35,528 bases of DNA from a virus, in the IMG/VR virus record IMGVR_UViG_3300023442_000011, positions 1-35,528 of that record. One strand, 5' to 3'. The notes below the pieces were generated by a model. The model did no database searches. It was not told the origin of the DNA and was given only the letters and a program-made list of their open reading frames with translations. Position 1 is the stretch's first letter; each line of letters begins with the position of its first letter. Positions 1 to 35,528 of the stretch are shown here, one piece after another. The translations under genes and the position numbers were made by a program.

Positions 1-145
1 ATCTAGTTTTACTATCTGATAGCTTTGCGGCTACCACGCTTGCGATGATGATCAGGTCTGATAGGCGGACGGTCATGGTTCGACCAAGACTAATCAAGTT
101 TTCGCCCTCGGTACAATCAGTAATGTGTAGTTCGTTTACTTGCAT
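1..145 (-). CDS. Small hypothetical protein spanning the contig joint (5' part)
   Basis: The ATG is at 145 and is preceded by a strong GGAGGT ribosome binding site. The site lies inside the last codons of the 77-residue gene upstream, so the two are translationally coupled. Read through the terminal repeat, the frame continues to a TGA at 35365-35367 and gives 59 residues beginning MQVNELHITD. The middle is hydrophobic (LSDLIIIASVVAAKLSD), and the end is cysteine- and arginine-rich (FCRCFGRGEA). I do not recognise the family. The hydrophobic stretch is short for a membrane segment and could be an amphipathic helix. It belongs to the leftward operon that starts at 752. Confidence 0.65.
   Translation of the reverse strand, partial: MQVNELHITDCTEGENLISLGRTMTVRLSDLIIIASVVAAKLSDSKTR
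4..129. repeat. Terminal direct repeat marking circular closure
   Basis: These 126 bases are identical to 35403-35528. The match stops at once on the left, because bases 1-3 (atc) differ from 35400-35402 (gag). A repeat of this size at contig ends is what de Bruijn assemblers leave when a molecule is circular, circularly permuted or concatemeric. A true short terminal repeat cannot be ruled out, but a gene reads through the joint, which favours an assembly overlap. Confidence 0.9.
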
Positions 146-752: not shown

Positions 753-766
753 AATTACCTCCTACG

Positions 767-772
767 GAATAA
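767..772 (-). promoter_or_regulatory. Shared extended leader, copy 2 (core)
   Basis: TATTCCGTAGGAGGTAATT precedes the first gene of the operon. With copies at 388-401 and near 26068-26079 it forms a three-member family sharing TCCGTAGGAGGT. Confidence 0.55.
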
Positions 773-776
773 GGTG

Positions 777-805
777 AGTATGCGCGCGTTGGCGTACAAT
801 GTCAA
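777..805 (-). promoter_or_regulatory. Sigma-70 promoter for leftward operon
   Basis: On the minus strand TTGACA (805-800) is followed by a 17-bp spacer and CATACT (782-777). The -35 box is perfect and the -10 matches 4 of 6. The leader is about 20 bases and ends in the AGGAGG site of the gene at 752. It should drive the genes from 752 across the joint to 34452. Confidence 0.75.
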
Positions 806-810
806 GCCGC

Positions 811-843
811 ATATAGTAGGGGTGCATGCTTGACCCCCTATAT
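811..843. promoter_or_regulatory. Operator-like inverted repeat upstream of leftward promoter
   Basis: The arms TAGGGGT (817-823) and ACCCCCTA (833-840) flank a centre that contains the palindrome GCATGC (824-829). Outer bases ATATAG and CTATAT extend the symmetry imperfectly. The right arm can also pair with GGGG at 847-850, so two exclusive hairpins are possible. It sits just upstream of the promoter at 777-805, where an activator or repressor could bind. No protein can be assigned. Confidence 0.4.
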
Positions 844-873
844 GTTGGGGTTTTGAAAATATATTTTCTACAG

Positions 874-903
874 TTGACATTTTTATTGTGTTATTGCAAT
901 AAT
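874..903 (+). promoter_or_regulatory. Possible rightward promoter into the gene-free region
   Basis: TTGACA (874-879) is followed 18 bp later by AATAAT (898-903). It points towards the packaging genes but has about 560 bp of non-coding sequence before the first of them. It could start the late transcript or a separate RNA ending at the terminator at 1384-1420. Confidence 0.4.
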
Positions 904-1085
904 TGGCGATGGTTTTCGAGTGCTGTTTGCCATAAAGACAGAGCAACGGTTTTTTGTGTTACCGGATAAAAAACAATATGGTGATATTGACGTATAATGG
1001 TTTAGTTACAATCATGGCGGCAGGACATTGCCGTTTCAGCCTGTGGAGTGGATGCAATAGCAGCCACGATGAAGCAGGAACCAGC

Positions 1086-1128
1086 ATTAGCATCATGCTA
1101 ATCGAATCCCCTGAATTTATTCATGGGG
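1086..1128 (+). other. Two adjacent hairpins in the gene-free region
   Basis: ATTAGCAT (1086-1093) and ATGCTAAT (1095-1102) are a perfect 8-bp inverted repeat around one base. Six bases later CCCCTGAAT (1108-1116) pairs with ATTCA and GGGG (1119-1128) with one bulged T. A third hairpin, CGGCA/TGCCG, lies at 1018-1033. Such close stacking of stems without a reading frame suggests structured RNA or a protein-binding array. Confidence 0.5.
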
Positions 1129-1383
1129 AGGATGTCAACAGTCAATTTTGCTAAGTGCGAGCCAGTGCGCCTTTCACCTTTCTGCACACCGCGACCTAAA
1201 TTGGGATTTCAGCAATGAATTTCACGCTGCGTAACCTTGCCCCCTGGTAGACCATCAAGGGATAAGAGAAAGGGAAGCTATCGTTTTTGAAACAATACCA
1301 CAGGAACATAGGTGTGATTAAAGGTTGCATTCCACCGCAGTATAGGTGTAGTATACCTGAATGTTGGCTCGCACTGACATCAT

Positions 1384-1420
1384 GCGCCCTTGGTCTAACC
1401 ATCCGGGGCGCTTTATTTTT
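1384..1420 (+). terminator. Rho-independent terminator before packaging genes
   Basis: GCGCCC (1384-1389) pairs with GGGCGC (1406-1411), and an inner TGGT/ACCA stem (1391-1394 with 1398-1401) can extend it. The stem is followed by TTTATTTTT. It would stop rightward transcripts arriving from the promoter at 874. Late genes must therefore start downstream of it, read through it, or be antiterminated. Confidence 0.65.
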
Positions 1421-1468
1421 CCTAAAGCTGTGCTACAGTAGCCGCATGGATAGCACCGGTTGCTCAGC

Positions 1469-1720
1469 ATGACTGATCCTCAATTGGCATGTGCATCATG
1501 GCGCAGGCTGAGGCTGCTTACATTACATAAGCAGCCGGTATGCCGGTGTGGGAGAGCGGCGACTGAAGTCGACCACATCATCCCACGGTCACTCGGTGGA
1601 ACAAACGATGAGGACAACCTGCAAGCAATGTGCCATTCGTGCCATACACGCAAAACATTCTCAGAGCAGGGGCGGGCGCGGAAGCAGGCGAACGGCTGGC
1701 CAAAAGGGGTAGGGGTATGA
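1469..1720 (+). CDS. HNH endonuclease of the packaging machine
   Basis: Small HNH nuclease of 83 residues from the ATG at 1469; a TTG nine bases upstream is in frame. The order is CRCG, the HNH core EVDHIIPRSLGG, then NDEDNLQAMCHSCHTRK, which gives the beta-beta-alpha metal fold with zinc-binding cysteines. In HK97-like cos phages an HNH protein encoded beside the terminase stimulates cleavage at cos (established for phages of this gene order). Here it is first in the late block, directly before TerS, which fits that role rather than homing. No clear ribosome binding site is seen. A free-standing homing nuclease is the alternative, but small size and position argue against it. Confidence 0.9.
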   Translation: MTDPQLACASWRRLRLLTLHKQPVCRCGRAATEVDHIIPRSLGGTNDEDNLQAMCHSCHTRKTFSEQGRARKQANGWPKGVGV

Positions 1721-3964: not shown

Positions 3965-5360
3965 TTTCAGGAGTATGTTTGCTGCAAGCAAAACAGCGCC
4001 TGCTCCGTTGCGGGACCCGTCACTTGTTAACCTGTTTGGATTGAGGCCGACAGCAAGCGGCCAAAACGTTACTCCAGATACAGCCATGCGGGTAACAGCG
4101 GTCATGGCGGCGGTCAGGGCGATAAGCGAATCAATAGCAAGTTTGCCTCTGTTTCTTTATCAGCGAGGACGGAAGGGAGGCAAGTTCCGCGCGTTCAATG
4201 AACCGCTATACAAGATTCTACACGATCAACCTAATCAATGGCAAACCAGTTATGAATTTCGCGAAATGATGATGGGGCATGTGTTGCTTCGTGGTAATGC
4301 TTATGCGCAAATTATTCCCGGTAGGTCAACGCCTGTTGCGGAGTTGGTGCCATTGCACCCGGACAAGGTACTCCCATTTAAGTCGCCTGATGGAAGTGTT
4401 GCATACGTATATCAAAAACCGAGTGGAAAGCAACGTATTCTTTTAGGCCGTGAGGTACATCATCTTAGAGGTTTTAGTAGCAACGGTTTGGTTGGCCTTA
4501 ATCCAATTGAGTTTGCCCGTGAGACAATCGGCGTGGCTCTTGGTGCGGAGGAGTACGGCGCACGATTTTTTGCAAATGATGCAACGCCTAGAATTGTGAT
4601 TGAACATCCTGGGCATTTCAAGGACAAGGAATCCCGCATTGCCTTTCGTAATGCATGGCAGGCAGCGCAGGCAGGCGATAACCGGCATAAAACTGCCGTG
4701 CTTGAGGATGGCTTATCCATCAAGGAACTCGGCCTGAGCAATAAAGATTCCCAATTTCTAGAAACGCGCCAATTCAGTTTGAACGATATCGCACGCATTT
4801 TCCGTATTCAGCCTCATCGCATCGGAGACCTGAGCCGAAGCACGAACAACAATATCGAACAGCAAAGCCTGGAATATGTGATTTATACGCTTAGGCCGTG
4901 GCTGGTAAACTGGGAGCAGTCTTTGACAAGGGACTTGCTTTTGACACCTCGGACGAAACAGTCGTTTTTCATCCAGTTTCTTGTTGATGCTTTATTGCGG
5001 GGAGATACAAGTAGCCGGTTTGAAGCTTATGCAAAGGCCCGGCAATGGGGGTGGATGTCGGTTAATGATATTCGGCGACTTGAGAATCAGAACACAATAG
5101 GTGCATCCGGGGACACATATCTTACACCGTTAAATATGCAGCAGGTTGGCCAGCGGCAGATCGCGCTTGAACGGGTAGCTGCCGAGCGAGTTGTGCGGCG
5201 CGAGGAAGCAAATTCTCAGATTGATATTGAAAAACACGCAGCATGGATTAAGCAAATATTACTTGTTGACGATGATAAATCTATGGCAATAGCAAAGGGT
5301 CACGGGCAGCCGGATCGGGTAGAAAACATTTTGAATATATTACAAGGAGACATTTTATGA
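3951..5360 (+). CDS. Portal protein, HK97 family
   Basis: 469 residues, close to the usual length. It forms the dodecameric ring at the unique capsid vertex through which DNA passes and to which connectors bind. Recognisable family stretches are VTAVMAAVRAISESIASLPL near residue 50, the EFREMMMGHVLLRGNAYA block near 105, and LEYVIYTLRPWLVNWEQ near 305. The C-terminal tail is charged. The ATG at 3951 has GGGGGTGA upstream; an ATG at 3975 with CAGGAG is too close to its site. It ends in an ATGA overlap with the protease gene. Confidence 0.95.
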   Translation: MIGANFRSMFAASKTAPAPLRDPSLVNLFGLRPTASGQNVTPDTAMRVTAVMAAVRAISESIASLPLFLYQRGRKGGKFRAFNEPLYKILHDQPNQWQTSYEFREMMMGHVLLRGNAYAQIIPGRSTPVAELVPLHPDKVLPFKSPDGSVAYVYQKPSGKQRILLGREVHHLRGFSSNGLVGLNPIEFARETIGVALGAEEYGARFFANDATPRIVIEHPGHFKDKESRIAFRNAWQAAQAGDNRHKTAVLEDGLSIKELGLSNKDSQFLETRQFSLNDIARIFRIQPHRIGDLSRSTNNNIEQQSLEYVIYTLRPWLVNWEQSLTRDLLLTPRTKQSFFIQFLVDALLRGDTSSRFEAYAKARQWGWMSVNDIRRLENQNTIGASGDTYLTPLNMQQVGQRQIALERVAAERVVRREEANSQIDIEKHAAWIKQILLVDDDKSMAIAKGHGQPDRVENILNILQGDIL

Positions 5361-7968: not shown

Positions 7969-8513
7969 TGTCGCTAATCCTTGTAGCCGACCTGAGCAGT
8001 GAGCCAATCACGACGGCTGATATGAAACTATTTCTGCGGGTTGATATTGCTGATGATGACGCATTGATTGGTAAATTGATCACATCTGCAAGGAGATATG
8101 TGGAAGATCATACATGGAGATCACTTGGTGTCGAGACTTGGAGGCAGGAACTTGATTCATTTCCATCTTGCATCAACTTATATCGCGGGAAAATTGGAAG
8201 TATTACGTCATTGAAATATATTGATACAGATGGTGTGTTGCAGACGTTGACAGGGTTCCGGGAAGATTTGAACAGCGAACCAGCACGCCTTTTCCCGGCA
8301 TATGGTAATGTTTGGCCGTCTACCCGATCTGACCCGGCTGCGGTGCAGATTACATATGCGACCACCGGAGATACTGACGAACAATTATTACATGCCGTGA
8401 AGCTACTTGTTGCGCATTGGTATGAGCACCGCGAGGCTGTAACTGGAATGAAATTGACAGAAATGCCGATTGCGGTAAATAGCCTTCTTTTGCCAAGGAT
8501 GATCACCGGATGA
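7968..8513 (+). CDS. Head-tail connector, HK97 gp6-like
   Basis: I start at 7968 because TAATG couples it to the gene before; an in-frame ATG at 7929 would overlap that gene by 40 bases. The 181 residues begin MSLILVADLSSEPITTADMKLFLRVD. This is followed by the diagnostic ADDDALIGKLITSARRYVEDHTWRSLGVETW, the helical core of the gp6-like adaptor that docks below the portal. A C-terminal helix ends in LPRMITG. It opens the head-completion cluster of four small genes. Confidence 0.88.
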   Translation: MSLILVADLSSEPITTADMKLFLRVDIADDDALIGKLITSARRYVEDHTWRSLGVETWRQELDSFPSCINLYRGKIGSITSLKYIDTDGVLQTLTGFREDLNSEPARLFPAYGNVWPSTRSDPAAVQITYATTGDTDEQLLHAVKLLVAHWYEHREAVTGMKLTEMPIAVNSLLLPRMITG

Positions 8514-35364: not shown

Positions 35365-35528
35365 TCAAGCCTCACCCCTGCCAAAGCAACGGCAGAAGTG
35401 AGTAGTTTTACTATCTGATAGCTTTGCGGCTACCACGCTTGCGATGATGATCAGGTCTGATAGGCGGACGGTCATGGTTCGACCAAGACTAATCAAGTTT
35501 TCGCCCTCGGTACAATCAGTAATGTGTA
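35365..35528 (-). CDS. Small hypothetical protein spanning the contig joint (3' part)
   Basis: Continuation of the 59-residue gene that starts at 145 on the other side of the joint. It ends with TGA ten bases before the ATG of the 32-residue membrane peptide at 35355. The unbroken frame across the joint is independent support for closure of the genome. Confidence 0.65.
   Translation of the reverse strand, partial: HITDCTEGENLISLGRTMTVRLSDLIIIASVVAAKLSDSKTTHFCRCFGRGEA
35403..35528. repeat. Terminal direct repeat, right copy
   Basis: Exact copy of 4-129. Joining the two copies gives a closed unit of about 35,399 bp and restores a continuous leftward reading frame starting at 145. Confidence 0.9.

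Follow-up and report, generated by a model that had tools for sequence, protein, structure and literature searches.

The window analysed here is a virus record of 35,528 bases, and in the leader before its HNH and small terminase (terS) genes it very probably carries a piece of an IS200/IS605 element that retains its right end plus the scaffold of a TnpB guide RNA and little more. Judged from sequence and covariation, positions ~1006-1138 are predicted to be a complete omega-RNA (reRNA) scaffold with the right end of an element of the TTAC/TCAA (IS608-like) type. It appears as an orphan guide RNA or a decayed mini-element under a phage promoter, and most likely is a recent captured fragment that is still structurally competent.

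Phage genome and architecture of the leader

An exact repeat of 126 bases was found at both ends of the window (4-129 and 35403-35528). Since such an overlap is the trace of a k=127 assembler on a circle, the phage genome is probably complete and circular. Tail genes are located 3' of the packaging and capsid block, and the leftward block after them contains exonuclease VIII-like and RusA-like genes. Rightward replication genes encode a DnaD-like loader and a DnaB-like helicase, and genes for a DNA helicase, a methyltransferase and NinB are also present. The blastn search of positions 500-1700 against phages gave no match, and the relatives found by terminase, capsid or neighbouring genes were all without the omega-RNA.

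The stretch of interest is bounded by a leftward gene (453-752) and the HNH gene. The initial annotation had described it as free of convincing genes and framed by a promoter and a terminator, which agrees with our results: no open reading frame in 753-1459 exceeds 68 aa or attains a Pfam cut-off, the promoter motif at 874-903 has 11 of 12 consensus bases and an extended TG, and the terminator hairpin at 1384-1420 (-16.6 kcal/mol) was equalled in stability by only 1 of 200 shuffles. This terminator was overlooked by the automated scan, which allows loops of 3-8 only, because of this loop limit and the interrupted hairpin. The order of genes that had been implied downstream (HNH at 1460, TerS, TerL, portal) was found as well. 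An imperfect palindrome, CATATAGTAGGGGTGCATGCTTGACCCCCTATATG, is located at 809-843 between divergent promoters and could be an operator; the leftward promoter-like site is TTGACA-17-CATACT at 805-777. Positions 375-423 and 747-797, upstream of two leftward genes, resemble each other around TTCCGTAGGAGGT (75% over 52 bases).

The three stems that had been pointed out at 1018-1033, 1086-1102 and 1108-1128 are all present and predicted in both the MFE and the centroid structure. Folded as one RNA of 521 nt, the region exceeds its shuffles in stability by a small margin (z -1.75), so that folding alone could not settle the matter. The signal lies rather in the k-turn hairpin, in the covariation among homologues and in the long-range inverted repeat of 11 bp (1154-1164/1365-1375). 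All features of the leader are listed in Table 1.

Table 1. Predicted features of the leader and the gene that follows it; G087 and G159 are bacterial genomes with related copies
Feature	Position	Strand	Basis
Sigma-70-like promoter TTGACA-N18-AATAAT, extended -10	874..903	+	11/12 consensus; predicted
Possible decayed left end: TTAC, then ...TATGGTGATATTGACG	957..990	+	Weak; autonomous elements have TATGGGGATATAAGCG
Orphan omega-RNA (reRNA) scaffold and IS200/IS605 right end	1006..1138	+	R1 match, 97% identity to G087
tnpB remnant, 31 C-terminal codons plus stop, LQSWRQDIAVSACGVDAIAATMKQEPALASC*	1006..1101	+	tblastn and reading beside G087 copies
Stem 1 CGGCA/TGCCG, loop GGACAT	1018..1033	+	Two-sided changes at 5/5 pairs, 19 homologues
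Pseudoknot GACA (1024-1027) / TGTC (1133-1136)	1024..1136	+	98.7% of cells paired, 19 homologues
K-turn stem, RAGATH-18-like core CCUGUGGAGUG...CACGAUGAAGCAGGAA	1040..1080	+	Two-sided changes at 4/9 pairs
Stem 3-like hairpin ATTAGCATCATGCTAAT	1086..1102	+	MFE and centroid; also in G087 and G159 copies
Right-end hairpin GAAT-CCCCTGAA-TTTA-TTCA-T-GGGG-AGGATG-TCAA	1104..1138	+	Identical in G087 and G159; aligned with 10 others
Predicted guide CAGTCAATTTTGCTAA, 16 nt	1139..1154	+	Placed by homology
Long-range stem AGTGCGAGCCA (1154-1164) / TGGCTCGCACT (1365-1375)	1154..1375	+	Repeat search
Intrinsic terminator GCGCCCTTGGTCTAACCATCCGGGGCGC-TTTATTTTT, T-rich tail	1384..1420	+	-16.6 kcal/mol hairpin
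HNH gene (position of HNH), followed by TerS, TerL, portal, protease, capsid	1460-1720		

Identification of the TnpB omega-RNA

At the gathering threshold, no Rfam family was detected in the window. A permissive search of positions 700-1500 gave the way in, a match to RAGATH-18 (RF03064) at 1040-1080 (32.3 bits, E=4e-4), which is below the gathering score of 44.9 bits. RAGATH-18 is the conserved k-turn portion of IS607 TnpB guide RNAs (PMC11061315), and the structure of this k-turn has been described (PMC8191799). The same permissive search reported HgcC at 1046-1151 (E=0.029), which was regarded as a chance match, because it overlaps the k-turn and its score is far under the HgcC cut-off.

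When the core pattern was used to scan viral contigs, most of the loci obtained shared one order, namely the end of tnpB, the k-turn core, GAATCCCC..TTTA..GGGGAGGATGTCAA and a variable flank. The order in the window matches that of these loci, with CGGCA-GGACAT-TGCCG, the k-turn stem and the hairpin followed by GAATCCCCTGAATTTATTCATGGGGAGGATGTCAA. Exact right-end and stem-1 variants were not found in the viral contigs. Matching DNA in plasmid records bears the annotation 'RNA-guided endonuclease TnpB family protein', and in one of them the match adjoins a tnpA of the ISAs26 family of IS200/IS605.

An independent test was made with the covariance model R1, which was built from nine omega-RNAs with the window left out and found a single match in the window, at 1005-1138 (70.7 bits, E=6e-18). 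For 18 named pairs, those of the pseudoknot among them, an alignment of 19 homologues has standard pairing in 95.9% of cells. Two-sided changes occur at 9 of these 18 pairs. Values as high were given by none of 500 shuffles, and the slid controls did not come close; the alignment includes related sequences and the shuffle counts are therefore not probabilities. The covariation that had been suggested as a check was seen for stems of the omega-RNA in these homologues. All 18 pairs are standard in the window itself. The pseudoknot helix shows one-sided changes only, at 3 of its 4 pairs, and the k-turn hairpin of 41 nt is clearly more stable than its shuffles (z -4.1). The feet of the right-end hairpin are GAAT (G_R) and TCAA (C_R). 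Stem 1, the pseudoknot and the k-turn stem are all intact, as are the UUUA-looped hairpin of the right end and the terminal ...GATGTCAA.

Of the earlier proposal of a structured non-coding RNA of the GOLLD or ROOL type, the first part holds, since the stems pointed out are parts of an RNA with covarying stems in its homologues, and the second is not supported. Neither family is among the Rfam matches up to E=10 for positions 700-1500, and the three stems are predicted to be parts of one known RNA type that is neither GOLLD nor ROOL. The location upstream of terS and the hairpins in the region would suit either an RNA of this large type or a cos site; with no Rfam match and the hairpins accounted for by the omega-RNA, this reading is highly improbable.

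Loci of the IS200/IS605 type are reported by RF03064 below the cut-off or are missed by it; L041, L069 and L070 were not listed, in a search that was also run on L053. The IS200/IS605 branch of omega-RNAs is therefore missed by Rfam annotation.

Missing enzyme and extent of the piece

No match to PF07282 or PF01385 was found in the window, and tblastn with one related TnpA detected no TnpA there. Homology to TnpB is confined to its C-terminus (1030-1098), where residues 380-402 of the G159 protein match at 78%; the remainder of the tnpB remnant was read off the sequence. A stop codon at 1003-1005 directly precedes this remnant. Instead of the 3' end of a full tnpB gene, the scaffold overlaps the last 31 codons only, and these codons are kept because the scaffold overlaps them. 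On this reading the element was classified as an orphan scaffold and not as a complete system.

The similarity to the G087 copies ends at 1006. Because the G087 contigs themselves end 5-8 bases further on, the actual edge of the piece could lie anywhere from about 1001 to 1010. TTAC is present at 1006-1009 and again at 957-960, and the piece may be either a right-end fragment of 133 nt or a decayed mini-element of 178 nt. The resemblance to a left end at 974-989 comprises 12 of 16 bases; it is weak, was picked after the fact and was equalled by 9 of 1000 shuffles of 905-1005. The intact left ends of the relatives gave no blastn match in the window.

Origin and bacterial relatives

For identification of relatives, 398 genomes were sampled from the phylum to which the alphaproteobacterial MAG G001 belongs. 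Among these, G087 (Pseudomonadota) carries right ends which are 97% identical to 1006-1138. The search of its genus revealed five G087 right ends with five different right flanks, and three TnpB matches in this genome are above the Pfam cut-off. We had considered the G087 copies as tnpB-less and frameshifted, but this was rejected, as the extra bases are 9 nt in frame, reading NILESWRQDIAVSACGVDAIATTMKQEPALASC*, and the contigs simply stop about 141 nt inside a repeat. In G159, a copy of 86-89% identity is located behind an intact TnpB of 402 aa, with a Y1 TnpA in front.

In independent insertions, the left ends of the autonomous relatives follow TTAC, which is likewise the target of IS608 (PMC8612924). 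The TAM of this TnpB family is therefore most likely TTAC. The link between the phage and G087 as its putative host is made by this one segment; the first 20 kb of the phage show no other DNA match in the G087 genus. The omega-RNA piece was most likely captured recently from a bacterial transposon.

Predicted guide and possible functions

The guide directly follows the right end in elements of this kind (PMC8612924). Transcription from the promoter at 874-903, or from a weaker one near 992, would run through the scaffold and the adjoining phage DNA to the terminator. The resulting RNA could be bound by a host TnpB of the same family, which would use CAGTCAATTTTGCTAA as its guide next to a TTAC TAM. 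Any effect would thus be exerted in trans, via the host TnpB. The long-range inverted repeat of 11 bp begins where the 16-nt guide would end; an equal repeat was obtained in 4 of 500 shuffles of 1139-1425, and in 25 of 500 when the entire region was shuffled.

A guide of this kind naturally targets the insertion site in its empty state. No target above chance was detected in the window, in the viral contigs or in the 74 genomes examined from the family. The genomes gave 9 matches at ≤3 mismatches, and the reversed-pattern control gave about as many. An 18-mer match occurs in three viral contigs that represent one locus, where it is preceded by GCATAG and not by TTAC. A sibling phage with an empty site was not found.

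On plasmids, TnpB promotes the spread of complete elements in the manner of a gene drive (PMC11870625). By analogy, a host TnpB loaded with the phage RNA might cut TTAC-CAGTCAATTTTGCTAA, the predicted empty site of siblings that lack the insert, with a gain for the phage like that of a gene drive. The intact scaffold, the tnpB genes in the putative host lineage and the TTAC directly before the segment, with a second one at 957-960, are in line with this. However, no sibling phage with an empty site was found, the TTAC at 1006-1009 may be a single-base variant of the element's TTAG, and the literature examined contains no demonstration of use in trans in a phage. We regard this function as unlikely. 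Its strictest form, in which a nuclease-less guide RNA gene borrows the TnpB of the host, destroys sibling or competing phages with an empty site as an RNA-only homing drive and has its 3' end trimmed by the long-range stem after the 16-nt guide, is less probable still. Because neither an empty site nor a target above chance was found, the gene-drive role stays a hypothesis.

The missing target would also suit a decoy, that is, an RNA whose harmless guide occupies TnpB of the host, or a defence based on TnpB, and thereby shields the phage. The complete scaffold and the strong promoter would serve this purpose, but there is no evidence for an anti-phage action of this TnpB family, and such a sponge seems very improbable.

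An inert relic appears somewhat favoured. Here, the segment would be what is left of a decayed insertion sequence or MITE without effect on the phage, and its fresh look would reflect recent capture. Only the right end is recognisable, positions 957-990 may be what remains of a left end, the guide is without a found target, and a divergence of 3% from the G087 copies leaves selection no time to show. Right ends that are truncated or orphaned are known as well from bacteria of the group (L091/L099, L072/L111) and from further viral records. On the other hand, the retained part is the whole functional scaffold and little else, and it sits between a strong promoter and a terminator in a compact phage with few bases to spare. 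Nevertheless, an inert relic is more likely than an orphan guide that acts as a gene drive.

The insertion may also be incidental to a leader of the late operon with regulated termination in the style of lambda PR'-tR'. A promoter, a leader of ~500 nt and a terminator are located just upstream of HNH-terS, and the orphan omega-RNA of the viral locus L037 likewise lies behind an STnc100-like leader and a terminator. An antiterminator gene was not identified, however, and this leaves the omega-RNA itself unexplained; we consider it a serious possibility, somewhat short of an even chance. It is compatible with an orphan scaffold as the main explanation: for the remaining transcript, a regulated late leader is possible without conflict with the omega-RNA identity. 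Positions 1155-1383 of the leader have no known relatives, and their features are the long-range stem alone.

Comparison with known systems and other orphan loci

The structure of ISDra2 comprises stem 1, a pseudoknot to the 3' end, a UUUA loop, a functional scaffold of 116 nt and a guide of 16 nt (PMC10097598). With the IS608/ISDra2-like omega-RNAs (PMC8612924, PMC10097598) the window shares the scaffold, the pseudoknot from the loop of stem 1, the UUUA loop, the TCAA end and the position of the guide, and TTAC precedes the left ends of its relatives as in IS608. In contrast to these omega-RNAs, there is no adjoining tnpB, and the copy is located in the leader of a phage, which provides a promoter and a terminator of its own. 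The intermediate hairpin is shorter than in most relatives. The k-turn core CCUGUGGAGUG...CACGAUGAAGCAGGAA is common to the window and the RAGATH-18-derived RNA of IS607 (RF03064, PMC11061315), although the window is below the Rfam cut-off and its relatives are IS200/IS605 elements with a Y1 TnpA. The TldR guide RNA of flagellin-remodelling prophages (PMC13418256) is likewise a TnpB-derived guide RNA on a phage; these phages encode the protein, whereas the record analysed here has no TnpB-like protein.

Omega-RNA sequence without tnpB is also retained in the MITE-like IS200/IS605 loci L072/L111 (genome G175) and in the viral record L037. Unlike the window, these have kept a recognisable left-end hairpin, and the right part of L072 is broken. 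Further orphans without full TnpB are, among the viral records, L033/L053 with two copies that face each other and L024/L039, which retains 50 aa of TnpB, and L091/L099 besides L072 among the bacteria of the group. L037 is prophage-like and contains, at 4276-4690, an STnc100-like leader (RF02076, 66.8 bits, above the cut-off), a terminator, a left-end-like hairpin and the orphan omega-RNA. By eye, this omega-RNA precedes an apparent methylation gene of a restriction-modification system or restriction-modification-like genes, and a similar leader sequence is found again at about 8180-8440. In the L033/L053 record (96,186 bases), about 300 bases separate the two facing omega-RNA-like sequences, TnpB is absent, and a third match, a weak one, is located at a different place in the record. 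In the genome G111 (contig 67, ~3595; L104/L089), a diverged omega-RNA directly follows the repeats GTTCACTGCCGCACAGGCAGCTTAGAA of a type I-F CRISPR-like array.

In a limited look at the open-licence literature, we found no account of phage leaders that contain a TnpB guide RNA without tnpB. Such loci are overlooked by gene-based annotation, as they contain no protein gene and no Rfam family at threshold, and a model such as R1 can detect further examples. If the RNA is used, it would represent an RNA-guided system in which the enzyme comes from the host and the share of the phage is about 150 nt. Even as a relic, it would indicate that TnpB guide RNAs enter phage leaders without the gene for their enzyme.
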